Shown here in pieces: positions 9,451 through 58,562 of a DNA stretch of 64,000 nucleotides (its first letter is position 1; every line of letters starts with the position of its first letter). Source of the DNA: Parietichytrium sp. I65-24A (lineage: Eukaryota > Sar > Bigyra > Thraustochytrida > Thraustochytriidae); the NCBI GenBank assembly GCA_012862575.1, contig BLSF01000010.1, positions 248,001-312,000 on the forward strand. Reading direction: 5' to 3'. The notes under the pieces are model-generated. The model was not told the DNA's origin and searched no databases. It was given only the letters and a program-made list of their open reading frames with translations. A program made the position numbers and the translations under genes.

Positions 9451-11091
9451 TCATTCGGCTGCAAGCTCAAGAGCTTCCACCTCCTTAGCCGATTGCAGAA
9501 AAGCGCACCACGAGGCTTGGTGCTCTTCGATATTGACGTACCGCTGGAAATTGTCCATGAAGAGGAGCTCAAGCTGTTCCCTGTAAAGATCGTCGAAGCA
9601 AAGCGCGGTAATATCTGGACGCTCAAAGTTGCTGAAAATATCGTCAGACACTGACTTCTCGTTGCTGGAGCCGCCTCCAATCTCCGGAAAGGAGAAAGGC
9701 AGTACTTTGTTCTTGGGTGGAGCGGCATTGGAAGCTTTTCGCTTGGTTTGGCCGTTTGGAAAGAGGATGCGCTCCACTTGCTCGATATTTCCAGCTTCCG
9801 TATTAATTTGGTTTGGCGCATCCGTAGCCAAATACTTGTCGTATATAGCCAACGCTGCTTTCCGAATCGCAATCTCTGCCCTTCTTTTCTTCTTCGGCGT
9901 CACAGTTCCTGATGTATTGCTATTTTTTGACTCTCCTTGATCCGAGCTCTCGGACTCTGACGCGTCTAAAACCGAATTTGAGACGTTAACACTTGTGTTG
10001 TCCTTCACACTCAAGTTGTCGTATAGTCTCCCAGAGTACTTTGACCTGAAATTACGAACCACCTTCAAGAATTGCAGTGCATCTTCGCTCAGTTCAGTTT
10101 TTAGGAATGCAAGCATGCGCTTGAACCCATCGAAACTCTTAATATACTGCTCAAAGTAAAAGAGTTCATAGTTGGTTTCATTGCTTGCAGCGAGAGTGTT
10201 CTCCGTGGAATACGTGTTTCCATGAAGCAATTCTTGCAAAATCGGGAGGTCCACGAGGGAGAAGAACATCCAAATCGTTGCCAAACTTGGCAGAGATGCA
10301 CACCAGACTGGGAACTTATCTTCATCCATTGTGTTTTGCATCGTGGACGTGATCAAATACAGCACCACCCCCAAGATGAGCGCATTGTTGTTTAGTACCG
10401 TCAACTTCTTGATGCCAAACTGGTCCCCAAATTGAAACATCCGTCTAAACTGCATGACGATCCCGCGACCGAACAAGATTGAAACAGAAAACATGAAAAC
10501 ATTCCAGACAGTGCTCAATGCCATGAGTGGCTGCGCCATGCAATAGGTTTGGGTCTGAGGCACGGCTCCGACGTCGCCAACAAGATATACAGCAAATGCG
10601 AGAACGGCAAGAAGAAAAACCTCAAGTATGCGAATCTCGATCGGGAAAGTGCGGCGAAACGCGCAATACTTGAGTGAAAACCTCTCCCAGGCGTGTTTCT
10701 TTTCGATATCCTTTTGGGTCGACATTAGTCCCATGCGATACCTCAGATACATGTCCCTGTACAGCAATAGATAAGAAAACCATATTTTTCCAACTGCGAG
10801 CCCGGTGATGTATACTCGAACAGTGCAGTTCATGGACTTTGCGGTCGCGCCAAACAATGCGTCCGTAACTTCAATCGAATTGTATATTGAACTGAAGAAG
10901 GCAAACTCGATCACTAGGGAAACATTTCTGATGCGTATCAGTCGTCGCCGCCGAAATGCGTACAATACGAACAAAGGCAGAATGAATGTGGCTTGCACGA
11001 TTCCATAGGTTATCCAATATGTTTTCCTCAGGCTTTCTTCCTCTGCCAAGGCATCATTCGCGTCTGTCAAAGCTGAATCCATTTCCGCCAT
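9451..11091 (-). CDS. Seven-transmembrane receptor with C-terminal RGS domain
   Basis: A 546-residue protein. About seven hydrophobic helices lie between residues 28 and 288 (for example 28-46, 56-80, 92-112, 153-172, 185-208, 236-250, 268-286). An RGS domain follows: FEQYIKSFDGFKRMLAFLKTELSEDALQFL (helices near 312-345), then IAIRKAALAIYDKYLATDAPNQIN (near 407-430), then ITALCFDDLYREQLELLFMD (near 494-513). Two low-complexity inserts interrupt it: 361-405, Ser/Asn/Asp-rich, and 446-486. RGS domains accelerate GTP hydrolysis on G-alpha; the layout is that of plant RGS1-type 7TM-RGS proteins. The Asn of the NQIN motif matches the catalytic-site Asn of RGS proteins by position. The start is ATG at 11091. 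Confidence 0.8.
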   Translation of the reverse strand: MAEMDSALTDANDALAEEESLRKTYWITYGIVQATFILPLFVLYAFRRRRLIRIRNVSLVIEFAFFSSIYNSIEVTDALFGATAKSMNCTVRVYITGLAVGKIWFSYLLLYRDMYLRYRMGLMSTQKDIEKKHAWERFSLKYCAFRRTFPIEIRILEVFLLAVLAFAVYLVGDVGAVPQTQTYCMAQPLMALSTVWNVFMFSVSILFGRGIVMQFRRMFQFGDQFGIKKLTVLNNNALILGVVLYLITSTMQNTMDEDKFPVWCASLPSLATIWMFFSLVDLPILQELLHGNTYSTENTLAASNETNYELFYFEQYIKSFDGFKRMLAFLKTELSEDALQFLKVVRNFRSKYSGRLYDNLSVKDNTSVNVSNSVLDASESESSDQGESKNSNTSGTVTPKKKRRAEIAIRKAALAIYDKYLATDAPNQINTEAGNIEQVERILFPNGQTKRKASNAAPPKNKVLPFSFPEIGGGSSNEKSVSDDIFSNFERPDITALCFDDLYREQLELLFMDNFQRYVNIEEHQASWCAFLQSAKEVEALELAAE

Positions 11092-42675: not shown

Positions 42676-44859
42676 CTAATCTGAGTTTACACTCGTGCTA
42701 GGCAATGCGGTGTCGGTTTTTGCGGTTGGTACAGGTCTCGATGCTGTTCTTTGAACCTTCTCATCACTTGATGGTGTGATCGAGTGTTTGCCCTGAATAT
42801 ACAGCTGGAACTTTGGTGCAAAGATGATAATAATTGTGCCCCAGTTTACAACCAACGCGAATAACGCCTTGACCAAAATGTCCATCGACGGCATGCTTGA
42901 AGTGATGAAGAGGATTGGAACACAGAGCGCAAAACACTCCAAAAAGTTGATCAGAGCAACGGCAATCCACTTCCCCTCGCTGAAAGCCACCGGGACCTTT
43001 CGAACTTTGTAGCTCAGATAGTTTCCTGCGATCAGAATCACCACGATGAATAGCAAAAGTGGCGACAGCCAGAACATGGGTGACTCACACACACAACGGC
43101 CTTGCGATTTGGTCGGCAGACCAGTAAATTCATCCGTCTCGAGTATGTCTCTCGACCATGTGAGAGGATCCATTACAGTCCAAGCTACGAGGATGCCAAC
43201 AATTGGTGAGATGATTACCAGCTCGTATTTCAGAAGTAATGACGTAGGAATGGAGATTTTCTTCAACCTGTGGTTGTTGAATAGCGTCTTGATTCTCCAT
43301 GTCTTCAAAAGTAGAGGGCAGAATAATAAAGCTAAAATGAANNNNNNNNNNNNNNNNNNNNNNNNNNNNNNNNNNNNNNNNNNNNNNNNNNNNNNNNNNN
43401 NNNNNNNNNNNNNNNNNNNNNNNNNNNNNNNNNNNNNNNNNNNNNNNNNNNNNNNNNNNNNNNNNNNNNNNNNNNNNNNNNNNNNNNNNNNNNNNNNNNN
43501 NNNNNNNNNNNNNNNNNNNNNNNNNNNNNNNNNNNNNNNNNNNNNNNNNNNNNNNNNNNNNNNNNNNNNNNNNNNNNNNNNNNNNNNNNNNNNNNNNNNN
43601 NNNNNNNNNNNNNNNNNNNNNNNNNNNNNNNNNNNNNNNNNNNNNNNNNNNNNNNNNNNNNNNNNNNNNNNNNNNNNNNNNNNNNNNNNNNNNNNNNNNN
43701 NNNNNNNNNNNNNNNNNNNNNNNNNNNNNNNNNNNNNNNNNNNNNNNNNNNNNNNNNNNNNNNNNNNNNNNNNNNNNNNNNNNNNNNNNNNNNNNNNNNN
43801 NNNNNNNNNNNNNNNNNNNNNNNNNNNNNNNNNNNNNNNNNNNNNNNNNNNNNNNNNNNNNNNNNNNNNNNNNNNNNNNNNNNNNNNNNNNNNNNNNNNN
43901 NNNNNNNNNNNNNNNNNNNNNNNNNNNNNNNNNNNNNNNNNNNNNNNNNNNNNNNNNNNNNNNNNNNNNNNNNNNNNNNNNNNNNNNNNNNNNNNNNNNN
44001 NNNNNNNNNNNNNNNNNNNNNNNNNNNNNNNNNNNNNNNNNNNNNNNNNNNNNNNNNNNNNNNNNNNNNNNNNNNNNNNNNNNNNNNNNNNNNNNNNNNN
44101 NNNNNNNNNNNNNNNNNNNNNNNNNNNNNNNNNNNNNNNNNNNNNNNNNNNNNNNNNNNNNNNNNNNNNNNNNNNNNNNNNNNNNNNNNNNNNNNNNNNN
44201 NNNNNNNNNNNNNNNNNNNNNNNNNNNNNNNNNNNNNNNNNNNNNNNNNNNNNNNNNNNNNNNNNNNNNNNNNNNNNNNNNNNNNNNNNNNNNNNNNNNN
44301 NNNNNNNNNNNNNNNNNNNNNNNNNNNNNNNNNNNCCCGGAAGACATCCGGGAATGGTGTCATTGTTGCACTTGCGAAAGATGGCTGCGAGAACCTCGGG
44401 GCTGAGCACCAACTCGGTCACTCCAACATGCTCGAGATTGAAAATGGGAACCACTGCGCCGGCCATGAACGGGTACATCTGGAGATCCGAGTACTTTTCG
44501 TAGTTGGCAGTCTTGAGTAAGCTGTCGCTGCAGGCAAAGTCGACGTTGCCTGGTATTTTGAGATCTTTTGTAGTGTCACACTCGGCGCAATAGTCCATGA
44601 CCCTGCATTTCCCAGACGAGCTCCCGATGGCTTGGTAAGAAGCTGCGATTCCTGGATGGCTTGATGCAAAAGCAAGCAGAGCGGACTGCATGACAACCCC
44701 GGCGAAGGTGGAACCTGCACCTTGGAGCACGATCTGTCCAAATCCGTTTATGCTATCTTTGGTGGTCTCATAGAATGACTCGCAGGCGACATCTTGAGCG
44801 CCCGTCGGATATGGGGTCAGTGCTGCCGCGAAGAGCAAACAGGCTGCATTGAATATCAT
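42676..44859 (-). CDS. PstS-like/class C GPCR, copy A (interrupted by assembly gap)
   Basis: The two ends of a receptor gene around 994 undetermined bases. The 5' part (44859-44336) encodes a signal peptide (MIFNAACLLFAAALTPYPTG) and the first half of a PstS-like domain with GAGSTFAG, YQAIGSSSGKC, FACSDSLL and SPEVLAAIFRKCNNDTIPG. The 3' part (43331-42676) encodes the second half of a GABA-B-like class C 7TM domain, from LLFCPLLLKTWRIKTLF onwards, with AWTVMDPLTW, the Cys-rich extracellular loop and a short Ser/Thr-rich tail. The 3' splice site (TTTTAG) of the intron seen in copies B and C is preserved at 43332. By comparison with copy C, about 2 kb of coding sequence should lie where 994 N are placed. 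The first-domain DNA is nearly identical to copy C. Confidence 0.85.
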   Translation of the reverse strand: MIFNAACLLFAAALTPYPTGAQDVACESFYETTKDSINGFGQIVLQGAGSTFAGVVMQSALLAFASSHPGIAASYQAIGSSSGKCRVMDYCAECDTTKDLKIPGNVDFACSDSLLKTANYEKYSDLQMYPFMAGAVVPIFNLEHVGVTELVLSPEVLAAIFRKCNNDTIPGCLPXXXXXXXXXXXXXXXXXXXXXXXXXXXXXXXXXXXXXXXXXXXXXXXXXXXXXXXXXXXXXXXXXXXXXXXXXXXXXXXXXXXXXXXXXXXXXXXXXXXXXXXXXXXXXXXXXXXXXXXXXXXXXXXXXXXXXXXXXXXXXXXXXXXXXXXXXXXXXXXXXXXXXXXXXXXXXXXXXXXXXXXXXXXXXXXXXXXXXXXXXXXXXXXXXXXXXXXXXXXXXXXXXXXXXXXXXXXXXXXXXXXXXXXXXXXXXXXXXXXXXXXXXXXXXXXXXXXXXXXXXXXXXXXXXXXXXXXXXXXXXXXXXXXXXXXXXXXXXXXXXXXXXXXXXXXXFILALLFCPLLLKTWRIKTLFNNHRLKKISIPTSLLLKYELVIISPIVGILVAWTVMDPLTWSRDILETDEFTGLPTKSQGRCVCESPMFWLSPLLLFIVVILIAGNYLSYKVRKVPVAFSEGKWIAVALINFLECFALCVPILFITSSMPSMDILVKALFALVVNWGTIIIIFAPKFQLYIQGKHSITPSSDEKVQRTASRPVPTAKTDTALPSTSVNSD
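43342..44335. other. Assembly gap (994 N)
   Basis: Run of undetermined bases inside receptor copy A. It sits in the part of the gene that is most similar among copies, so repeat collapse is the likely cause. Confidence 0.98.
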
Positions 44860-47204: not shown

Positions 47205-49364
47205 CTAGTGGTGATTTGAAGGTTGACTTGGTCTACTTGTTGCCCATGCCACATCTTCTCGTCCTGTGTTCGCACATTTGGTATTTCTCGATGCTGTTCT
47301 TGAAGTCTTCTCATCACTCGACGGCATAATTCTATTCTTCCCTTGTAAATAAAGCTGGAACTTGGGTGCAAAGATGATAATAATTGTGCCCCAGTTTACA
47401 ACCAACGCGAATAACGCCTTGACCAAAATGTCCATCGACGGCATGCTTGAAGTGATGAAGAGGATTGGAACACAGAGCGCAAAACACTCCAAAAAGTTGA
47501 TCAGAGCAACGGCAATCCACTTCCCCTCGCTGAAAGCCACCGGGACCTTTCGAACTTTGTAGCTCAGATAGTTTCCTGCGATCAGAATCACCACGATGAA
47601 TAGCAAAAGTGGCGACAGCCAGAACATGGGTGACTCACACACACAACGGCCTTGCGATTTGGTCGGCAGACCAGTAAATTCATCCGTCTCGAGTATGTCT
47701 CTCGACCATGTGAGAGGATCCATTACAGTCCAAGCTACGAGGATGCCAACAATTGGTGAGATGATTACCAGCTCGTATTTCAGAAGCATAGACGTTGGAA
47801 TGGAGATTTTCTTCAATTTGTCGTTATTGAAGAGCGTCTTGATTCTCCATGTTTTCAAAAGTAGAGGGCAGAATAATAAAGCTAAAATGAAGTGGCATGT
47901 AGTATGTCAGTTGTCCGCCTGCTCTTCGCAAAAATCATTTAATGCGCACTCAAACTTACCAAAGCCGATGAAAAATAAGAACGGAACTAGCCGGCAACTG
48001 ATATCCAGATGCTTTTGAACATCCTCCTGCGAATATGAGCTCCTGTTCTCTTCGTAGAGGACTCGGTCATCAGCCACCAACGGCAGTATACAAGTCGTTG
48101 AGAGACAGGCCCCAAAGATGATCTGAAGCATAAACGTATACGTGGATGCACGGATGATGGTCACTTTGCGCTTCAAGATGATCCACACAGAAAGCACCAC
48201 TCCAGATAGAAGCGACAGCACGACGAGGGCGACAAAAGCTCGTTTCGCGCCTGAAGAGAGCAAGTCGAGGTCGTGGGCTGGAAGCATGACTACTTCTCCT
48301 CCGCACACTACACTGGCTTGACGAATGAAAAGATCACTGGCATCCATGTGGGCGGTCAAGACGACGGCATAAATCGACTGTGCCACACTGCTAAGAGTTG
48401 CTGGGTCGACTATCCAATACACCATCTTGGCGAATGCGTTGCCTACAAGAGGGTTTCCGTCGCTGAGATCAAAGCCACACAGATTGTCCGAGAAATTGGT
48501 CCGAAAGCCGATTGACAAGTTTCCGATAATCGGATATGTACCTTCTTCAACGGTTTGAGGAAACGCATAAAGTGTGCCATTTTCCATTGTGAGGTCCGCC
48601 GCTTTGGAAAGATAAGACAGTGTGGAGATCTGAGGAGTCATAAGGAATGCTCCAACGGTCGCGTAAACTCTTTTGCGTCCCTCGTCAAAATCTCCAGCTT
48701 GTATGTCGCTGGCCGTAAATCTGAACTCAGGGTCGATCTTTTGAAGACTTTGCTCGACGATCGAGTCCCACATAGCGTCGAGCTCATCCTTGACCCGAAC
48801 AACTTGAATCTTCGTATCGGGAAGAGACACGCGACTTCCTGCAAGTGTGCCAACTATTCGTTCGTCGGACCACATTGTTATCTCACCCGAAAGAACGCCC
48901 ATAAGAGCTTCGAGGTTGAGCTCAACGTTCACCTCGCTTACGTTGCAAAGAGAGTGCGCAACACCGCAGAGAGAATACACTGGAAGGACTGGAACAGCAA
49001 GCACCGGAAACGCCATGGTGCCATCCATATTTGCGGGAACTCTTGACNTGTTGCCTGGCATTTTGAGATCTTTTGTAGTGTCACACTCGGCGCAATAGTC
49101 CATGACCCTGCATTTCCCAGACGAGCTCCCGATGGCTTGGTAAGAAGCTGCGATTCCTGGATGGCTTGATGCAAAAGCAAGCAGAGCGGACTGCATGACG
49201 ACTCCGGCGAAGGTGGACCCTGCTCCTTGGAGCACGATCTCTCCCGCATCATTGATGCTGTCTTTGGTGGTCTCATAGAAAGATTTGCAGCCAACATCTT
49301 GAGCGCGCGTCGGATATGGGGTCAGTGCTGCCGCGAATAGCAAACAGGCTGTATTGAGAATCAT
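47205..49364 (-). CDS. PstS-like/class C GPCR, copy B (internally shortened at a one-N join)
   Basis: Exon 1 is 49364-47960 and exon 2 is 47881-47205, about 693 codons as assembled. A signal peptide (MILNTACLLFAAALTPYPTR) and the start of the PstS-like domain run to ...TKDLKMPGN, where a single N at 49048 joins directly to the second, degenerate PstS-like domain (LAVPVLPVYSLCGV, GEITMWSDERIV). By alignment to copy C about 370 residues are missing at this join. The second domain and the full 7TM part are intact, with RASTYTFMLQIIFGACLS (TM2 region), LVPFLFFIGFALLFCPLLLKTWR (TM3) and VPVAFSEGKWIAVALINF. The phase-1 intron has GTAAGT and TTTTAG ends. Most simply this is an assembly join, not a real deletion. 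Confidence 0.8.
47882..47959 (-). other. Intron (78 nt) in receptor copy B
   Basis: On the minus strand the donor is GTAAGT and the acceptor TTTTAG, with a CTGAC motif about 27 nt before the end. Phase 1; splicing restores the conserved TM3 segment ending KTWRI, as in copies C and D. Confidence 0.85.
49048..49048. other. Single undetermined base at a probable contig join
   Basis: One N between the first-domain fragment and the second-domain sequence of receptor copy B. Confidence 0.9.
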
Positions 49365-51657
49365 CGGGCCGCGATCGCGACTGATCTCGCAATGTATTTG
49401 GGGATTGCAACTTTCATCTGTACAAAAGACAAGCAGCTGGTTATGACGAGTCATGGCTTGGTAGTATACATTCACATGCTCACATGGAAAGTCGATTGCG
49501 ATGCGTTCGTGTGTTAGCCTTTCTCAAAGTACTTGGAAATTTTTGGGCAATAACGGAAACACCAAGACGAAAGTCAAACATTCAAGCCAAAAAATACTGA
49601 TACCTAAGCAGGAAGTGTCTCCCTGCCATTTCTGTCAATTCACATCTATCATCTGCAGTGCAAGCAGATGTACTCGTTCAATTGTTGACCGAAAGGCCAA
49701 ATAAAGTACATGGAAATCAAGACCCTACAAGGCCTCGGGCTTTCTCAACTTGCAGCGCAGTATTTGCTTTGAGATCTTGAGGGCCGAGAAATGAATAAGT
49801 CGTCGGGTGGTATGATGGGTGACCGGCCATCTGTACTACTTGCCAAGGACATGGCATCTTCGTTCTAACTTGTGGAAGAGTGAGCGGCAATCAAATTCAC
49901 ATTGTACATCGCCTCTCTCACATTCAGTCCTTCGCGATTTCTGTCTTCTGAGTCCACCTTGGCTCACATGTCCACATTCCAGAGCGTTTCAGCGGCAAGC
50001 CGCCGTCGCTTGTTCCCACCGACACTACATGATACTCGAGCCTTCTATCCCTTTGCTGATTTGCCGTGCCAAAGTTTGTTCCTGCGTTGCAATTTGTTTT
50101 TCGGCACACACTGTGGCATTTCACTGTCTGAGTCCGATTGAAAATATAACGGACAGATTAGCAGTGTGGAAGTGCCAACGCACAAAAGCCTAAGGATGGA
50201 TGCCTCACCACGTCTGTAAGGTGCTAATCGCTTCTCCATCCACTGATTGATGTCTGCGGCAACATGATTGATCAATGTCCCAACCGGATGCGTGGGGAAA
50301 TGGAGTGGAAGGGATTCTCTACTCGCTAGTCCAAAGTGAGTGGCAAAGTTGTGCGTCCTCGGTCAAGAACAAGTTCACGAACTTTAACGCGGAAGAATGT
50401 ACACTTGTTCTTTCCCCCGTAAACGAACGTCAACGAATGAGAAGACACGGAGCTTCTTCTCAATGCTACAAATGCTACACCTCTTCAATCATAACCTTCT
50501 CCTTGCACGAAAGCAAAAAAGACCATTTCGTATTGCAAACGGTACGAATCCTGACTTACCGGTAACAAACTTCAGCGTCGGAAATAAGGCAGACAATTCA
50601 AGCGACTTCGTGTGCATTCTGTAGTTCAAAAACCTCACTCCTACGTGTACGTTGGACTCGGCTCCTAGTACCCCGTTCAATTTTCGTTGAACCGGTCGTT
50701 CGAATGCTGCAAACCCGAGAACTCTGAAGTGGCGCGGGGAGGTAGCCAGGCACATTGAGTAGTTGGAAGTCAAAGCCTCCGGAAGTTTTCAGGACAATCC
50801 AAGAGAGCGCAGATGCTTCCAAATTTTGTAAATCTTCTTGAAGCTGCCTAAGCCGTGAAACGCTTTTGGCGCCGCTCGCAGTGAGACATTTACGTTTGTG
50901 TGTGAACTTACTTAATTTGTTCGTCAATCGTGTCGAAGTACAAGACTAGTGTCAATCAGCCGAAATCATAAAACTACGTCATTTGAGATGCGTTGAACTC
51001 CTAGTGACCGTGACTCGGAACGTAGCCGTGAAGTGTTGGCAAGAGGATCATGCGGGAACGAAGAAGGAACGCAACCTGGAGGTTGGCTAAATGTCCCAGT
51101 GCGTAGTAGTGCAATCTAGCGCCAATCACGCTTTCCCGCTGCTGGACTTTTAGTCGATGTTTCGGCCCTTAAAGAGCAGAATTCAGAATTCAGAAACTAT
51201 GGACTGCGATTCAGGCATTGCTGCTCAAGATTACGGTGGAGCGCCACAGTTGAAAAATGCAAGAAACGAACTGATTTTCTGCATAAGAAATTGCGATGCA
51301 GTGTAAATGCGCTGACATCAGCGCTATACAGGTAGAAAAAAACGGAGAGTTAGGGGTTGAGAAATTGGACACCGCTGGGACAAATTTCTGCAGAAACATA
51401 GAATGCCAATTACCTTCCGGTCGGACAGAACTTGCTTTTGACCTTGGCCATCGTCATCTCGCAAAGCATTTCGTCAAGAGTTCGCTCGATCTTCTAATTC
51501 TATGAGCCAGATCCGTGCTATCATACAGGTGGTTAATAGCTCTTCAGTCAACAATGAGTGCGAGTTCACAAGATGCCCTCAACCACCATGAATGCAAACG
51601 CCGGAAACAAACACCAATCGACGTTCATTTGCTGCATGACTTCCTTCAACGCGCAAA
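49365..51657. other. 2.3-kb central spacer of the receptor array
   Basis: Separates the divergent copies B and C. Short open frames only, no domain signatures. Upstream regions of B and C do not look alike beyond the coding start. It presumably contains both promoters. Confidence 0.5.
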
Positions 51658-54600
51658 ATGCACTTTGGCACGACTTGTATGCTCTTCGCGGCAGCACTGA
51701 GCTCATATCCGACGCTCGCTCAGGATGTCGCCTGCGAGTCTTTCTATGAGACCACCAAAGATAGCATGAATGATGCTGGAGGGATTGTGCTCCAAGGTGC
51801 AGGTTCCACCTTCGCTGGGGTTGTCATGGAGTCCGCTCTGCTTGCTTTTGCATCAAGCCATCCAGGAATCGCAGCTTCTTACCAAGCCATCGGGAGCTCG
51901 TCTGGGAAATGCAGGGTTATGGATTATTGCGCCGAGTGTGACACTACAGAAGATCTCGAAATGCCAGGCAACATCGACTTTGCCTGTAGCGAGAGCTTAC
52001 TCAAGACTGCCAACTACGAAATGTACTCGGATCTCCAGATGTACCCGTTCATGGCCGGCGCAGTGGTTCCCATTTTCAATCTCGAGCATGTTGGAGTGAC
52101 CGAGTTGGTGCTCAGCCCCGAGGTTCTCGCAGCCATCTTTCGCAAGTGCAACAATGACACCATTCCCGGATGTCTTCCGGGGTCCATCTCTCATTGGAAC
52201 GACGAACGGATCGTGGAGCTCAACCCAGGCATAGCCAACGAACTTACTGAGGCAGGAGAAATCTTCGTGGTGGTCCAGGAAGGAGGAAGCGGTACATCAA
52301 GCGTATTTCGAGATGCTTTGAAGCTCTATGACGATCAGTTCGAAGCGCAAACCATGCAGGACGACGAGGAGTGGACAAATGTGGACGCTATTGACGGAGA
52401 GACCAATGATGGTGTAAACGCAGTAATCCGCTTTACAAAATCTGGGATATCATATTCATCTTTGCCAGCAGCTGAGCACTCAAAAAGCCGAATCGCGACA
52501 CTCCTTCATGATGGTTCAAGACCGATTTTGCCCAACTCGAAATCGACCATGTTTGCGACGATGGAATCCGGCCTTGAGTTTGGGAATAATGGGGATGATC
52601 CCGAGCATCTCACTGCCTCACTTCTCGGATCTAAGCAAGCAAGCGCCTGGCCAATATCATCCTACACTTACTTTGTGGTCCGTAAGGAGTCGTTGAGGTA
52701 CGGCGCGGCATGCGAAAATCGGAAAGCACTGCTCACATTCATCACCTGGTTCTTGACAAGCGAAATAGCATCTGAGGTCATTCAGTTTCACGGGTTTTCT
52801 TCCCTTCCCGCAGAAATTGCTGAGCCTGTGCTGGAAAGGCTCCGTGGTGATCTCAAATGCAGCGGAGAGAATCTGTACGTATCTCCAAGAGTCACGAACA
52901 TCCATTTTGACGTAGCCGATGTGCTCGTAGAGACACTCCAGCCACTTCAGGTTCTTCACAAACTCGTTCAGCCGAGCGTGGATCTTCATATTGAGGGAGT
53001 TCATGACGAAGATCTCGGCGAGGAGCTGGGGGAGTTGGAGGAACCACATCTGTTCATCGATCTCAGTTCCAATTTCCCCGAAAGTATAGACGGCGCAAAG
53101 ATATTCGAATTCCTCGCAGTGCCGATTTTGCCAATATTTTCAATCTGTGGTGTGGAGCTCGAAGAATGTGAATACAGCAACGTGAAAATTGAGTGCAATG
53201 TGTCGACCCTGTTGAAAATTCTGCGCGGTGAAATAACCGACTGGTCCCACGAAAGCATCTCTGCCACGGCCAATGGTGAACATGTGCAGCTTCCAGAGAT
53301 GGAAATTCTTGTGATTCGAGTGAACGATGAGCACGACGTGGTTTGGGAGACCCTCGCTCAACAAGAACTGCAGAAAATCGACCCGAGTTTTTCCTTCTCG
53401 GCAAGATCGATTGACGTTGACGGTTACAGTGAAGGTAGATCAAAGGTGTACACAACAGTAGGAGCTCTGATGCTCGCACCTCAGATTGCGCCTCTGCCAG
53501 AGTTGGCGAGGGAATTGAATCTGAGGCTGGACGACGGAACTATGGTTGCGGTACCTGCGTCCGTCAAAGACGGATCATATCCTCTCATAGGTAATTTGTC
53601 AGTTGCGTTTCCTGATTCGTTTTCTGATGATTTGTGCGGTTTTGACGAAGCCGATGGAAATCCGTTGGTTGGCACTGCTTTTGCAAAACTTATCTTTTGG
53701 TTTCTGGACCCAATGACGCTCCGCAGCTTCACAAGCCGTCACTCAGTTCTTCGGACCGATGAACTCGACGAAGAGGAACTCTTGCACTTGCGATCGAGTA
53801 TCTCTTGTGGGGGATCATCTGTGATGCTTCCAACACATGACCTAGACCTTCTCTCAGAAGGCGTTCAAAAGAGCTTTATTGCATTTGTCGCAATCTCGCT
53901 TCTTGCAGGATTTGTTTTGGCACTATGGGTCTACAAACATCGAACGAACCCCATTATTCGTGCCTCCACGTATACGTTCATGATTCAAATTATCTTTGGA
54001 GCTTGTCTGTCAATCTCGACGATCATCCCACTCATTGCTGACGACAGGCAACTATACAATCATGAAGAAGATGATCACGATGAGGAAGCGGAGCTAGACG
54101 AGGCGGCTGTTCTCGATTATCTAAATCTGAGCTGTCGTCTGATCCCGTTCCTCTTTTTTACTGGATTTGGTAAGTTGAAGTATTCTCATTGCTTTGCTGA
54201 GCTGTCGGTCTGATCTAACGGTTGTTTTGTATCTTCTTTCCCACAAAATAGGGCTCGTCTTCTGCCCTTTACTCCTGAAAACCTGGAGGATAAAAGAGCT
54301 CTTTAACAATCGAAAGCTGAAAAGAATTGCCATCCCCACAAATTTGCTCCTCAAGTACGAGCTCGCGGTTCTCGCCCCAATTGTCGGTATTCTTGTGGCT
54401 TGGGTGGCTGTAGACCCTCTTACATGGAAGAGAGAAATCACTGAGACCGACTCTTTCACTGGCTTGCCAACTAAATCTCGTGGAAGCTGCGTTTGTGAGA
54501 CTCCGATGCTGTGGCTAGCTCCTTTGATCATTTTCATCGTGATGATCCTCATTTATGGCAACTATTTGAGTTATTCAGTCCGAAAAGTGCCGGTTGCCTT

Positions 54601-54925
54601 CAGCGAAGGAAAATGGATCGCTGTTGCTCTTATCAATTTTTTAGAGTGCTTCACGCTTTGCGTGCCCATTCTATTCATAACGTACGATATGCCATCGATG
54701 GACATCCTTGTCAAGGCATTGTTTGCTGTAGTGGTGAATTGGGGAACAATCATCATCATCTTTGCTCCAAAGTTTCAGCTTTATGTTCATGGCAAGTACT
54801 CTGTTACCCCAAGTAGCAATGATAAAGGGTCCGCGTCCAGAGCTGCTAAAGGCGGGGCTTCCTCCACAGTTGCTGCAGAGACAGATGTGGCCTCGAGAGC
54901 AACACAGCGGAGCACAAGCTCTTGA
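51658..54925 (+). CDS. PstS-like/class C GPCR, copy C (complete, one intron)
   Basis: Exons 51658-54169 and 54252-54925 encode 1061 residues. A signal peptide (1-22) precedes PstS-like domain 1 (about 43-415). This aligns with E. coli PstS throughout: GAGSTF (48-52), AIGSSSG (77-83), IDFACSES (106-113), MYPFMAGAVVPIFN, SHWNDERIVELNPG (178-191), GGSGTSSVF (209-217), AWPISSYTYFVV and FSSLPAEIAEPVL. Domain 2 (about 470-735) keeps LRGEITDWSHESI and the overall plan but lacks the SGT motif. A GABA-B-like class C 7TM domain follows (about 738-1010): RASTYTFMIQIIFGACLS, GLVFCPLLLKTWRIKELF, AWVAVDPLTW, GNYLSYSVRKVPVAF and a final FAPKFQLY. The tail is Ser/Ala-rich. Likely a surface receptor for phosphate or a similar oxyanion, coupled to G proteins (inference). 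Confidence 0.9.
54170..54251 (+). other. Intron (82 nt) in receptor copy C
   Basis: The donor is GTAAGT, CTAAC is at 54215-54219 and the acceptor AATAG. Phase 1, inside the TM3 coding region, at the same site as in copies A and B; absent from copy D. Confidence 0.9.
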
Positions 54926-55466
54926 TCAAGAGTTCAAAAGTTCAATTTTTATCATTTTTCGCTGCCACCCCTTTCTCTTAAAGTTCCTTTTCGTAGTACC
55001 TATTTTCACCTTCACACCAAATAGATCATTGAATCTACTAGCTAGTCTAAACAGCGTCACATCACGGATAAGGCGTACCGTATGTAGATTCTCGCCTCCA
55101 TGGGATTCGAATCCGCTTCTGTATCATACCCGTGCTGCCAGTCAGTCAGTGTAGTCTATGTCAGTTATGTCAGTGGAAACCCAATTTGTGGTCGGACTTT
55201 CTTACCGGTAACACTCAGAGTATGTAATAGATCCGCTCTACGCTCGAAAGTCACGGTCACGATTGTCACGATGACGATTGACAGTGAGTACTGAATACTG
55301 AGTACTGAGTGAAGTGAGTGATTGACAGTGGGTACCGATTGGAGGGAAAGGTCGCGATGCAAATGGGGCTGAAAGAGGCGTCTCCGGCACGTTTTTATTT
55401 GACAGTAAAAGCCCAGGCTGGAGACACTGAAAACGGGCCCGGGCTTGCCAGGCCGTCATTCGTGAG
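54926..55466. other. Spacer between receptor copies C and D
   Basis: 541 bp. It contains a cluster of GAGTACTGA/GATTGACAGTG near-repeats at 55270-55335 and a GATTCGAATC palindrome near 55103; no gene. Confidence 0.55.
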
Positions 55467-58400
55467 ATGGGCGTTCACTTTCTGCGAGCGACAACAAATG
55501 TTTTCATGCTTCTGAGCTTGGCCAGGGAAGCGAGCGCATGCGAGGCGGAAGCTTCAGAAGGTCTGAGTGGAGGCAAGGTCGTGGTGATCGGGGCAGGCGC
55601 CTCTTTTCCAAACCGGCTGTATCAAGATGCACTGTTCACGTACGCGTTTAGCGAGGACGGCGCGTCGTTTAGCTATTCGGCAATGGGGAGTGGCAAAGGC
55701 AAATGCAGGATCATGGACTATTGCACGAGGTGTGATGTTGAAGACGACCTTGCGGATCCTCAGGTGATCGACTTTGCCGGCTCCGACTCGCTGCTTACTG
55801 ATGCGGACTATGAGGAGTTTCCAGACGTGCAAATGTACCCCTCAGCCGCTGGAGCGGTAGTTCCAATATTTAACTTGAAGAGCGTTGGAATCAATACCCT
55901 CGTATTGAACACCACCGTACTGAGTGCTATTTTCCGTCGGTGCGAGGATCCCCTACTTGAAAGCTGCTTGCCAGGATCTATTGCATTGTGGAGTGACCCA
56001 GCAATTGTCTCGCTGAACCCAGACCTTGAGGACAGACTCGTTGCTGCCGGAGAAATTAATCTTGTTGTCCAAGAGAGCTCAAGTGGAACCACGGAAATAT
56101 TCAAGCGAGCATTGTCCAGCTTTGACGCAAACTTCTTTGCACAGGTGGGTGAATCATCTTCAGCAACGTGGAACAATGTACGCGTCACCAAGGGCGACAC
56201 AAACACAGGGGTAGCCTCCGTGGTTGCAGTGACCGAGTCCTCAATTGGGTACAGCATCCTTGCGGAAGCAAATTCCATGGGGCTCTCCACCGCATCGCTT
56301 CTTATGCATGGTGCATCGACTCCTGTTGAAGCATCTGTCGAGGCAATCAGCATGGCTGTGATGGAGAATGGCTTAAATTTTGGAAACAATGGAGATTCTG
56401 CGTCAAGGCTGACCGCCAACATCCACAACTCTCTCGGATATCGCTCTTGGCCTATTTCTGGTTACACCTATTTTGTGCTGCGCAAAGAATATCTTCGGGA
56501 TGGAGCGTCGTGCGAGAATCGTGTAGCATTGTACAATTTTCTCGAGTGGTTCTACACCAGCTCCGTTGTCACCGATTTAGCTTCTGCTCAAGGATTCGCG
56601 GTTCTGCCGGCTGAAGTGAGCGCCTACGTCTTAAAGCAGCTGAGGTCGCAGCTTAAATGCAATGGAGAACTATTGTATCAGGCAGATGTTTTCTTCAAAT
56701 TTCAAATGGATCTTACTCCAGCTGTGTACAATATGCTAAAATCAGTCGCCCCAGTCTTTTCGCTCATAGATGAGCTCGTTATGGTCCAGGTGGGGAAGAT
56801 CTCCGAGTCAATACCAGCCCTCTCGTTAGAAGTTCCTCACGTTATTTTTGACGTTCGGGATAGACTGCCATCGGGCGATAACTTGACGGTAGTTGACATG
56901 TTTGGTGTTCCGCTTGTCGTGTTGTATTCAATCTGCGGAGCACAGACTCAGCAGTGCTCTACAGGGTGGAAAAAGCTCAACGTCAGTATTCCTATTTTGG
57001 CAGATATCCTCTCTGGAGAAATCACAAATTGGGCGGGAATACTTTCGGACCTACCTGAACAGGAAATAAAAGTATATAAATACGTCGGCAGCGACGGTGC
57101 GCTTTGGACGGAAAGCTTTCAAAGTATGCTTCAGCTGTACGTTCCGCAGTTCGAGTTTACAGCAAACGCGACATCTGCTGAGAGTCTAGAGGCTATAAAA
57201 GCCCATGTCTACTCCACCCCGGGTGCGATCACTGTGATTCCACACACGGGCAGCCTGACGGACTTGGACGTCTACCTTTCCCTCGAGATAGGTGGCATTT
57301 ACGTCGATTATTCGTCGGAGCAGTATCCCTTTGTTCAGCATGTGTCCATGGCATTCTCCACGCAGTTTCCAGAGACATCTTGTTCCACAAACTCGCTGGT
57401 TGGAATAGCAAACAGGTTTGGAAAGTTCGTTTTCTGGATCACATCAATAAGCACGCTCGAAAACGCGATGTCAACCTACAACATGCAGCTGCTTTTAGAA
57501 AAACTTACAGCGAGCGAGCTGCGGGAGATCCAGCTCGCGGTCAAGTGCAATGGATCCTCTATTATGGAACCAGAGCATGAATTAGACTTGCTCCCTAAAG
57601 GCACAAAGGCGGCAGTACATGCTATAGTTTCGATTTTGTATGTATCTCTGAGCTTGATGCTGATTGCAGCGGTGATATTCAGACGATCTTCTGTGGTTCG
57701 CGCAACATCTCTCACATTCATGGTGCAAATCATATTCGGCGCGTTGCTTAGCGTTTCCAGCATTCACCCTTTGCTGTTCGATGATAGAGACATATATGAG
57801 CTGCCGGAAAGTGTCGATGCAGTAGCTCTGCAAAGTGCGCTAGATCAAAGCTGTATGGCGGCTCCGTACCTGTTCTTCATTGGATTTGGCTTTATGTTTG
57901 TTCCAATGGTTTTGAAAACCTGGCGAATCCTGCAAATATTCAAGAACAGGAAATTGAGGCGGGTGATCATCCCGCTTTCCACTATGCTGAGGTATGAATT
58001 GTTCATACTGGCACCCATCGTGACGCATCTCATCCTGTGGAGTCTGTGGGATCCATTGACCTGGGTTCGAACGGTGAAAGAGGTCGACAGCTACACCGGC
58101 TTGCCGACTTCGTCTATAGGGCGTTGCGAGTGTAAACGACCATGGGTCTGGCTCTCCCCGTTGCTGGGTTTTATTGTCCTGGCATTAATTGTTGGAAACT
58201 ATTTGAGTTTTCGCTCGAGGCACATACCGGTGGCGTTTCATGAAGGAATGTGGGTTTCCCTAGCCCTGCTAAATTTCCTGGAATGTTTTTTGCTCTGTTT
58301 ACCGCTCCTTGTCATAACCAGCGAGTCATTTCGGCTGGGTGTACTAATCAAATGCGCGTTCGTGCTGATGTCCACTGTGGGCGCTGTTATGCTCATATTC

Positions 58401-58562
58401 TTGCCCAAGTTGAAGCTATTTTGGACTGGGCACTATGTCATGATATCCTCAGAGCACTCGGCCGTACTTCATGGCCCTTTTCTTCAAGGCTCTGCACACA
58501 CTTGGAATCATGCAAGTGAGGTCATCACAGATGTCAGGTTCCAGCCACAGAGCAAACGGTAG
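55467..58562 (+). CDS. PstS-like/class C GPCR, copy D (complete, intronless, divergent)
   Basis: A single 1031-residue open frame with the same plan as copy C. A signal peptide (about 1-25) precedes PstS-like domain 1 (about 35-415): GAGASFPNRLYQ, SAMGSGKGKC, IDFAGSDSLL (Asp kept), YPSAAGAVVPIFN, ALWSDPAIVSLNPD, ESSSGTTEIF, SWPISGYTYFVL and FAVLPAEVSAYVL. Degenerate domain 2 (about 480-700) has VDMFGVPLVVLYSICG and LSGEITNWAG. The class C 7TM domain (about 712-985) has RATSLTFMVQIIFGALLS, GFMFVPMVLKTWRILQIF, SLWDPLTWVRTV, GNYLSFRSRHIPVAFHEG and FLPKLKLFW. The tail is short. It is clearly diverged from copies A-C in DNA and lacks their intron. The start is the first ATG of the frame. Confidence 0.92.
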   Translation: MGVHFLRATTNVFMLLSLAREASACEAEASEGLSGGKVVVIGAGASFPNRLYQDALFTYAFSEDGASFSYSAMGSGKGKCRIMDYCTRCDVEDDLADPQVIDFAGSDSLLTDADYEEFPDVQMYPSAAGAVVPIFNLKSVGINTLVLNTTVLSAIFRRCEDPLLESCLPGSIALWSDPAIVSLNPDLEDRLVAAGEINLVVQESSSGTTEIFKRALSSFDANFFAQVGESSSATWNNVRVTKGDTNTGVASVVAVTESSIGYSILAEANSMGLSTASLLMHGASTPVEASVEAISMAVMENGLNFGNNGDSASRLTANIHNSLGYRSWPISGYTYFVLRKEYLRDGASCENRVALYNFLEWFYTSSVVTDLASAQGFAVLPAEVSAYVLKQLRSQLKCNGELLYQADVFFKFQMDLTPAVYNMLKSVAPVFSLIDELVMVQVGKISESIPALSLEVPHVIFDVRDRLPSGDNLTVVDMFGVPLVVLYSICGAQTQQCSTGWKKLNVSIPILADILSGEITNWAGILSDLPEQEIKVYKYVGSDGALWTESFQSMLQLYVPQFEFTANATSAESLEAIKAHVYSTPGAITVIPHTGSLTDLDVYLSLEIGGIYVDYSSEQYPFVQHVSMAFSTQFPETSCSTNSLVGIANRFGKFVFWITSISTLENAMSTYNMQLLLEKLTASELREIQLAVKCNGSSIMEPEHELDLLPKGTKAAVHAIVSILYVSLSLMLIAAVIFRRSSVVRATSLTFMVQIIFGALLSVSSIHPLLFDDRDIYELPESVDAVALQSALDQSCMAAPYLFFIGFGFMFVPMVLKTWRILQIFKNRKLRRVIIPLSTMLRYELFILAPIVTHLILWSLWDPLTWVRTVKEVDSYTGLPTSSIGRCECKRPWVWLSPLLGFIVLALIVGNYLSFRSRHIPVAFHEGMWVSLALLNFLECFLLCLPLLVITSESFRLGVLIKCAFVLMSTVGAVMLIFLPKLKLFWTGHYVMISSEHSAVLHGPFLQGSAHTWNHASEVITDVRFQPQSKR

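Follow-up and report, generated by a model that had tools for sequence, protein, structure and literature searches.

In class C G-protein-coupled receptors (GPCRs) such as the GABA-B receptor and the calcium-sensing receptor, the head is a type I (LIVBP-like) flytrap. The receptors described here lie in a 64 000-nucleotide stretch of the thraustochytrid Parietichytrium sp. I65-24A (contig BLSF01000010.1, positions 248 001 to 312 000, forward strand; hereafter the window), taken from a genome assembly of 42.5 Mb in 172 contigs. In place of that flytrap they carry two type II domains in tandem, related to the bacterial phosphate-binding protein PstS, on a class C seven-transmembrane (7TM) domain. 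The measurement of extracellular phosphate by free-living eukaryotic cells is poorly understood, and over large parts of the sea production is limited by phosphate. A near-intact PstS pocket on GPCRs, cyclases and a phosphodiesterase (PDE) would provide concrete proteins with which eukaryotic phosphate sensing can be tested.

In 2012, PBP_like_2 was reported in one glutamate-family GPCR of the chytrid Spizellomyces, SPPG_06488, and other type II heads were reported in Allomyces (PMC3251606). SPPG_06488 resembles two of the window receptors, copies C and D, in having PBP_like_2 on a glutamate-family GPCR; the likeness is by description only, the available text mentioning the protein once and with no PstS assignment (PMC3251606). 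In Plasmodiophora brassicae, 7tm3 fused to PBP_like_2 or SBP was described in 2016; the fusions were called transporters unique to the species, phosphate was predicted for four of them, single coding regions were found by transcriptome, and the authors stated that the homology-based prediction of phosphate or sugar transport requires experimental confirmation (PMC4815078). These proteins combine 7tm_3 and PBP_like_2 as C and D do, again by description only; the available text contains nothing on tandem domains, pocket residues or other outputs, and the homologies in its Figure 3 may name PstS (PMC4815078).

More distant systems include the calcium-sensing receptor, also of class C, which phosphate inhibits directly via R62 in an anion site (PMC6795806); this amounts to a different solution to a similar task. 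The Dictyostelium Grl proteins, class C receptors of a protist, have heads of the BMP or ANF type, GrlD being the putative polyphosphate receptor, and PBP_like_2 appears among the abbreviations of the same paper, with the receptor not specified (PMC10445921). The BMP and ANF heads belong to another Pfam clan of binding proteins than PBP_like_2. PstS is treated elsewhere as cyanobacterial and phage (PMC3429862), a prasinophyte transcript labelled pstS was raised under nutrient restriction (PMC11217555), and a word search of PMC12716839 gave no mention of PstS, PBP or periplasmic. In the literature searched, no text was found that names PstS with class C receptors, a tandem head, or the sharing of such a head with cyclases or a PDE. 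An earlier sequence-only reading of this DNA, which had supposed the architecture to be undescribed, was mistaken in part: PBP_like_2 with a class C 7TM is in print for Spizellomyces and Plasmodiophora. The architecture is not wholly new; what goes beyond the literature found is the tandem head and its sharing with cyclase, PDE and glutaminase proteins, the grouping of domain 1 in trees and the pattern of residues at Arg135 of the pocket.

Domain make-up of the window receptors

Copies C and D are confirmed, on sequence evidence, as class C receptors with a PstS-type (type II) ectodomain. Both are complete genes, as the sequence-only reading had held: copy D occupies one open frame (55467-58562) of 1031 residues, and copy C is assembled from frames 51658-54213 and 54194-54925, joined across one GT..AG intron to give 1061 residues. 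The two share 40% identity over 993 aligned positions. A fifth copy, C38 (1131 residues, with PBP_like_2 and 7tm_3 by Pfam), lies elsewhere in the genome at G000:C38. The features of the window copies are as follows.

51658..54169 (+): copy C exon 1; signal peptide, PstS domain 1, PstS-like domain 2 and TM1 to the start of TM3 (open reading frame and spliced translation)
51781..52860 (+): copy C PstS domain 1, about residues 42-401 (PBP_like_2 match at 44-368)
51991..51993 (+): copy C Glu112, at the E. coli PstS Asp56 position
52276..52278 (+): copy C Gln207 (CAG), at the E. coli PstS Arg135 position
52894..53808 (+): copy C PstS-like domain 2, about residues 413-717, boundaries set by hand (alignment and profile comparison)
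54170..54251 (+): copy C intron, 82 nt, GTAAGT...AATAG, within TM3
54252..54925 (+): copy C exon 2; remaining 7TM and C-terminal tail (7tm_3, E = 2.1e-21)
55467..55538 (+): copy D likely signal peptide, residues 1-24, judged by eye
55575..56660 (+): copy D PstS domain 1, residues 37-398 (Pfam, TIGR00975 and PDB PstS)
56070..56072 (+): copy D Gln202 (CAA), at the E. coli PstS Arg135 position
56679..57566 (+): copy D PstS-like domain 2, residues 405-700, boundaries set by hand; phosphate motifs lost
57612..58409 (+): copy D class C 7TM, residues 716-981 (7tm_3, GABA-B2, seven hydropathy peaks)
47205..49475 (-): copy B, likely Met start at 49364, intron 47882-47959; the single N at 49048 is an assembly gap, where part of domains 1-2 is missing
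42676..44859 (-): copy A; an N run at 43342-44335 masks later domain 1, domain 2 and TM1-3

The PstS identity of the ectodomain had been put forward for checking against Pfam and the PDB, and both bear it out. Pfam assigns PBP_like_2 to residues 37-364 of D (E = 2.4e-19) and 44-368 of C (E = 1.5e-20). In an NCBIfam scan that took in D and C38, the PstS model TIGR00975 matched D at E = 2.1e-43 over model positions 2-311 of 315, and C38 at E = 3.7e-50. Searched by sequence against the PDB, whole D found the PstS chains 8ods (1.2e-18) and 2z22 (5e-18) as its best matches, with GABA-B2 next. In profile-to-profile comparison, the domain 1 family aligned with bacterial PstS over its full length (E = 1.7e-85); compared with bacterial PstS, the receptors have one domain more and a signalling part in the membrane, and C and D lack its Arg135. 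Neither C nor D gave an ANF_receptor match at E <= 1 in Pfam, the heads showing PBP_like_2 only, and in this both depart from class C receptors as delimited by a type I (ANF_receptor/LIVBP-like) flytrap. The 7TM was taken as defining class C membership because glutamate-family receptors with type II heads have already been published.

The membrane part agrees with the GABA-B-like class C domain proposed earlier. In D, 7tm_3 covers residues 716-981 (E = 1.2e-29, above cut-off); in C the match is divided by the intron, exon 1 scoring 2e-6 (below cut-off) and exon 2 2.1e-21 (above). The D 7TM alone is nearest in the PDB to GABA-B2 (9jqx, E = 2.8e-10) and then to GABA-B1. Hydropathy plots contain seven transmembrane peaks after the head in C, D and C38, and one further peak within domain 2. 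The motifs KTWRI, DPLTW and FxPK are present in the translations, as had been noted; GAGSTF, listed with them, is found in C and reads GAGASF in D. Both cysteines of the pair linking TM3 and the second extracellular loop, which we take to be defining for class C GPCRs, align in D with those of GABA-B2. Domain 2 ends about 20 residues before TM1, with no cysteine-rich domain between. The likeness to the GABA-B receptor consists of the nearest solved 7TM, KTWR after TM3 and the lack of a cysteine-rich domain before TM1; the difference is a head of two type II PstS-type domains.

That a second PstS-like domain follows the first had also been read from the sequence, and profile comparison upholds it. 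Domain 2 of D alone drew no significant PDB match, a single PstS chain scoring E = 0.3. As a family, 22 aligned second domains matched 60 bacterial-type PstS rows with an hhalign probability of 99.8 (E = 2.7e-28), and the first domains with E = 8.1e-27 (one comparison each). When 17 second domains of the GPCR type were made into a model, each of the 90 bacterial-type PstS rows searched gave a match at E <= 10, the five best at 2e-35 to 2e-33. Domain 2 of C38 is a separate PBP_like_2 match (E = 1.4e-7). In the alignment, domain 2 is without conserved letters at the GAGxxFP, GSGxGK, SD and RxDxSGT positions, and with these phosphate motifs not kept, phosphate would not be expected to be held there in the manner of PstS.

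An artificial origin of these genes was also considered, whether as a chimera of the assembly or of the gene models or as bacterial contamination. Copies A and B do contain gaps, and divergence is uneven among parts of A, B and C. Against this, D is one unbroken frame, the genome holds five copies, B and C have introns (at the same site), the window neighbours include the eukaryotic genes MCM5 and Sec61, and records from Hondaea and Heterosigma contain this fusion as well. Chimera and contamination were rejected on these grounds as extremely improbable. Copies A and B carry PBP_like_2 and 7tm_3 by Pfam, as C and D do. The ratio of nonsynonymous to synonymous substitution rates (dN/dS) is 0.37 between the 7TM parts of A and B, and the corresponding proportions of changed sites (pN and pS) are 0.43 and 0.86 between C and D, values which indicate that the window copies are under constraint.

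The tandem head on other outputs and in other lineages

The same head was found in front of signalling enzymes (protein records are given by our numbers, P0001 and so on). In P0012, P0021, P0035 and P0036 a Guanylate_cyc domain comes after the head, and in P0131 and P0135 there are Guanylate_cyc matches below cut-off in that place; for P0037 the cyclase assignment is a precomputed label. In P0019, PDEase_I follows the head. The second-domain model matched past domain 1 in 15 of 15 cyclase-type proteins (a group that includes proteins without a Pfam cyclase match), in one PDE and one glutaminase protein, and in eight of 11 other proteins. Between head and enzyme, P0012, P0035 and P0019 each have one strong hydropathy peak (>2), with a weaker one in addition in P0019.

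Three proteins with PstS-type domains deserve separate mention. The glutaminase protein, P0136, is an MMETSP transcript with a PstS head before a full glutaminase domain. In P0033, a Prymnesium parvum record, the PstS head precedes a membrane region that shows seven hydropathy peaks and matches no Pfam family. In the Parietichytrium genome, an 849-residue frame (L059 2042-4591 (-), G000:C95) combines Kelch repeats with a PstS-like PBP_like_2 domain (E = 1.2e-24); it has one C-terminal membrane helix as judged by eye, and no 7tm_3 match.

The fusions to enzymes bear on whether the receptors instead carry phosphate, or some other solute, across the membrane, the role suggested for the fusions of Plasmodiophora. 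The precedent is the prediction of phosphate and sugar transporters there by sequence homology (PMC4815078). The membrane part here, however, is a class C GPCR domain, and cyclase and PDE proteins bear the same head with a single strong hydropathy peak before the enzyme (P0012, P0019 and P0035). We regard transport as very unlikely. Sensing is favoured over it because the head is shared with cyclase, PDE and glutaminase proteins, and its reuse on other signalling outputs suggests that the ancestral role was most likely extracellular phosphate sensing.

The search across eukaryotes that had been suggested for this architecture returned records from Hondaea, Heterosigma, Prymnesium, Cymbomonas and Hanusia, which are the named holders of the PstS-type head; further head-bearing transcripts have labels that we take to denote Euglena. 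The close named relatives of the window receptors belong to the thraustochytrid Hondaea fermentalgiana, and the best match to D outside the window is P0001. One record, P0008, is titled Batrachochytrium salamandrivorans and represents either contamination or a real occurrence.

A quick domain-1 tree was calculated from 45 of the 91 bacterial-type rows together with 41 of the 42 receptor-type rows; the receptor-type row left out was a fragment below the length limit. The receptor-type rows were grouped against the bacterial rows with a Shimodaira-Hasegawa-like approximate likelihood-ratio test (SH-aLRT) value of 100; P0051 and P0078, labelled bacterial by list order, sit within the receptor-type clade. 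The best prokaryotic loci for domain 1 are PstS of Chloroflexota/Anaerolineae, and the scan leans to Anaerolineales because two Anaerolineales rows were in the query alignment. No tandem form was seen among the 79 prokaryotic loci returned, none of which matched beyond query residue 393. A viral origin was considered and rejected: one scan of viral_contigs gave no relative, and of the 64 phage records that match D domain 1 the five listed are 26-27% identical.

The 7TM tree was built from 58 rows, reduced to 49 after removal of near-copies. It drew on 14 of the 16 7tm_3-labelled matches among P0001-P0039 (P0007 and P0010 omitted) and was offered 42 7TM loci of this genome, including C38 and some that overlap, out of 82 7tm_3 matches. 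A single clade (99/99) takes in 12 of the 17 sampled PstS-type rows, with C, D, C38 and the two Hondaea proteins among them, and is separate from 32 further class C 7TMs of the genome, in line with the earlier proposal of a separate fusion event.

The phosphate pocket and its probable ligand

The phosphate contacts of E. coli PstS are T10 (or Ser at this place), F11, S38, D56, R135, S139, G140 and T141, of which we take Asp56 to distinguish phosphate from sulfate. These positions were read in 42 receptor-type rows (C, D, C38 and P0001-P0039) and 91 bacterial-type rows, several rows being fragments that end short of the first sites; pocket geometry comes from the alignment alone. All 91 bacterial-type rows keep Arg135, and so do 40 of the 42 receptor-type rows; the two exceptions, C and D, both have Gln. 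C38 keeps all eight contacts and is alone among the three in having the full set, D being without R135 and C without R135 and D56. F11, S38, S139, G140 and T141 are kept in both C and D. Elsewhere, P0024 has Leu at F11, and T10 is replaced by Ser in most receptor-type rows. At position 137, D has Ser, C has Gly, and Arg-bearing relatives have Thr, Ser or Glu; because it varies among Arg-bearing rows it counts for little, and the arginine change alone is telling.

In domain-1 trees, D falls beside the Arg-bearing P0001, and a tree constraining C and D together was not rejected (approximately unbiased test, p-AU = 0.279). By these trees, the arginine may have been lost once, in a common ancestor of C and D, or twice. 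From the pocket letters, phosphate sensing by the family and by C38 is likely, and C38 should bind phosphate. The phosphate binding that had been read into C and D does not stand as written: these two are more likely to bind phosphate weakly, to bind another ligand or to be non-binding partners, in that order and with little between them.

The reading that we consider moderately probable is of receptors with a tandem PstS head and a phosphate-sensing ancestry, in which C38 would be a phosphate binder and C and D low-affinity or other-ligand derivatives. They would be cell-surface class C receptors in which the tandem type II head replaces the usual type I flytrap. Domain 1, N-terminal and membrane-distal, carries the pocket and would close on the anion. 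Domain 2, probably a spacer, relay or dimer surface, would pass the movement on via the short linker to TM1, and the GABA-B-like 7TM would then activate a G protein of the cell. In the order of events proposed, the head was probably acquired once from bacterial PstS and then reused on other signalling outputs; in C and D, Gln would later have taken the place of the clamping Arg. The genome contains 24 G-alpha matches (17 above cut-off, some of them exon pieces) and 52 RGS matches, which make G-protein coupling possible and nothing more. We more tentatively suggest that the tandem PstS module, of bacterial origin and joined to GPCR, cyclase, PDE and glutaminase outputs, could be a general sensor of extracellular phosphate in several deep lineages of microbial eukaryotes, the window cluster being lineage-specific and retuned by loss of the arginine to lower affinity or a new ligand. 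Gln-bearing C and D together with an Arg-bearing copy in one genome constitute a natural experiment on change of affinity or ligand.

Two other readings of C and D start from the same pocket. In the first they would be non-binding partners, with a domain 1 that keeps its fold and takes no ligand, signalling only as dimers with a binder such as C38, in the way that GABA-B2 binds no ligand. The Gln at Arg135 in both and the Glu at Asp56 in C fit this, as do the closest solved 7TMs (GABA-B2, then GABA-B1) and the presence of the pocket-keeping C38 in the same genome; a dead pocket, however, need not keep F11, S38, S139, G140 and T141, as C and D do. We consider this unlikely. In the second, domain 1 of C and D would sense another anion or a neutral ligand (an oxyanion, phosphonate or metabolite) at full strength. 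The charge of Arg135 is lost and position 137 is changed (Ser in D, Gly in C) in a pocket otherwise mostly kept, but position 137 also varies in Arg-bearing relatives and no ligand can be named from the letters. This too appears doubtful; it overlaps the favoured reading, and the likelihoods expressed here for the several readings do not sum to unity.

Several observations weigh against phosphate-sensing receptors with a tandem PstS head. In the pocket, neither of the complete window copies has Arg135, and copy C has Glu at Asp56; copy A keeps Asp56, and position 135 of A and B falls within assembly gaps. D lies below the TIGR00975 equivalog cut-off (148.6 versus 205 bits), as does C38. The second-domain model matches first domains too, and its matches are therefore evidence for PstS kinship and not for the identity of domain 2. 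Of the 11 other proteins, P0020, P0029 and P0034, two of them shorter than 450 residues, have no clear second match. The bacterial rows in the domain-1 tree were picked by similarity, so that the single uptake and the donor remain tentative. Finally, the main clade does not take in five of the 17 PstS-type 7TMs (three Heterosigma rows, P0022 and P0038), which makes repeated fusions or deep loss possible.

Other receptors of the genome and minor features

Besides its 82 7tm_3 matches, the genome contains 24 ANF_receptor matches, and other receptors here have ANF heads. SBP_bac_1 (one frame) and OpuAC (three frames) were also observed sharing a frame with 7tm_3, by which type II heads on class C bodies recur in this genome. 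The frames are as follows.

G000:C10:638961-641021 (-): 7tm_3 frame with SBP_bac_1 or OpuAC head
G000:C69:133517-135571: 7tm_3 frame with SBP_bac_1 or OpuAC head
G000:C10:82271-84331: 7tm_3 frame with SBP_bac_1 or OpuAC head
G000:C13:437477-439531: 7tm_3 frame with SBP_bac_1 or OpuAC head

Within the window, the N-terminal 174 codons of A and C have a dS of 0.12, whereas their 7TM parts are saturated (pS = 0.85); the contrast reflects either gene conversion among the copies or misassembly. A weak RGS-like match, below the Pfam cut-off, lies at window positions 9454-11091 (-) (E = 3e-4). Two receptor frames elsewhere in the genome, G000:C8:550194-553952 and 540466-542832 (1847 and 1976 residues), carry three and two ANF_receptor matches, respectively.

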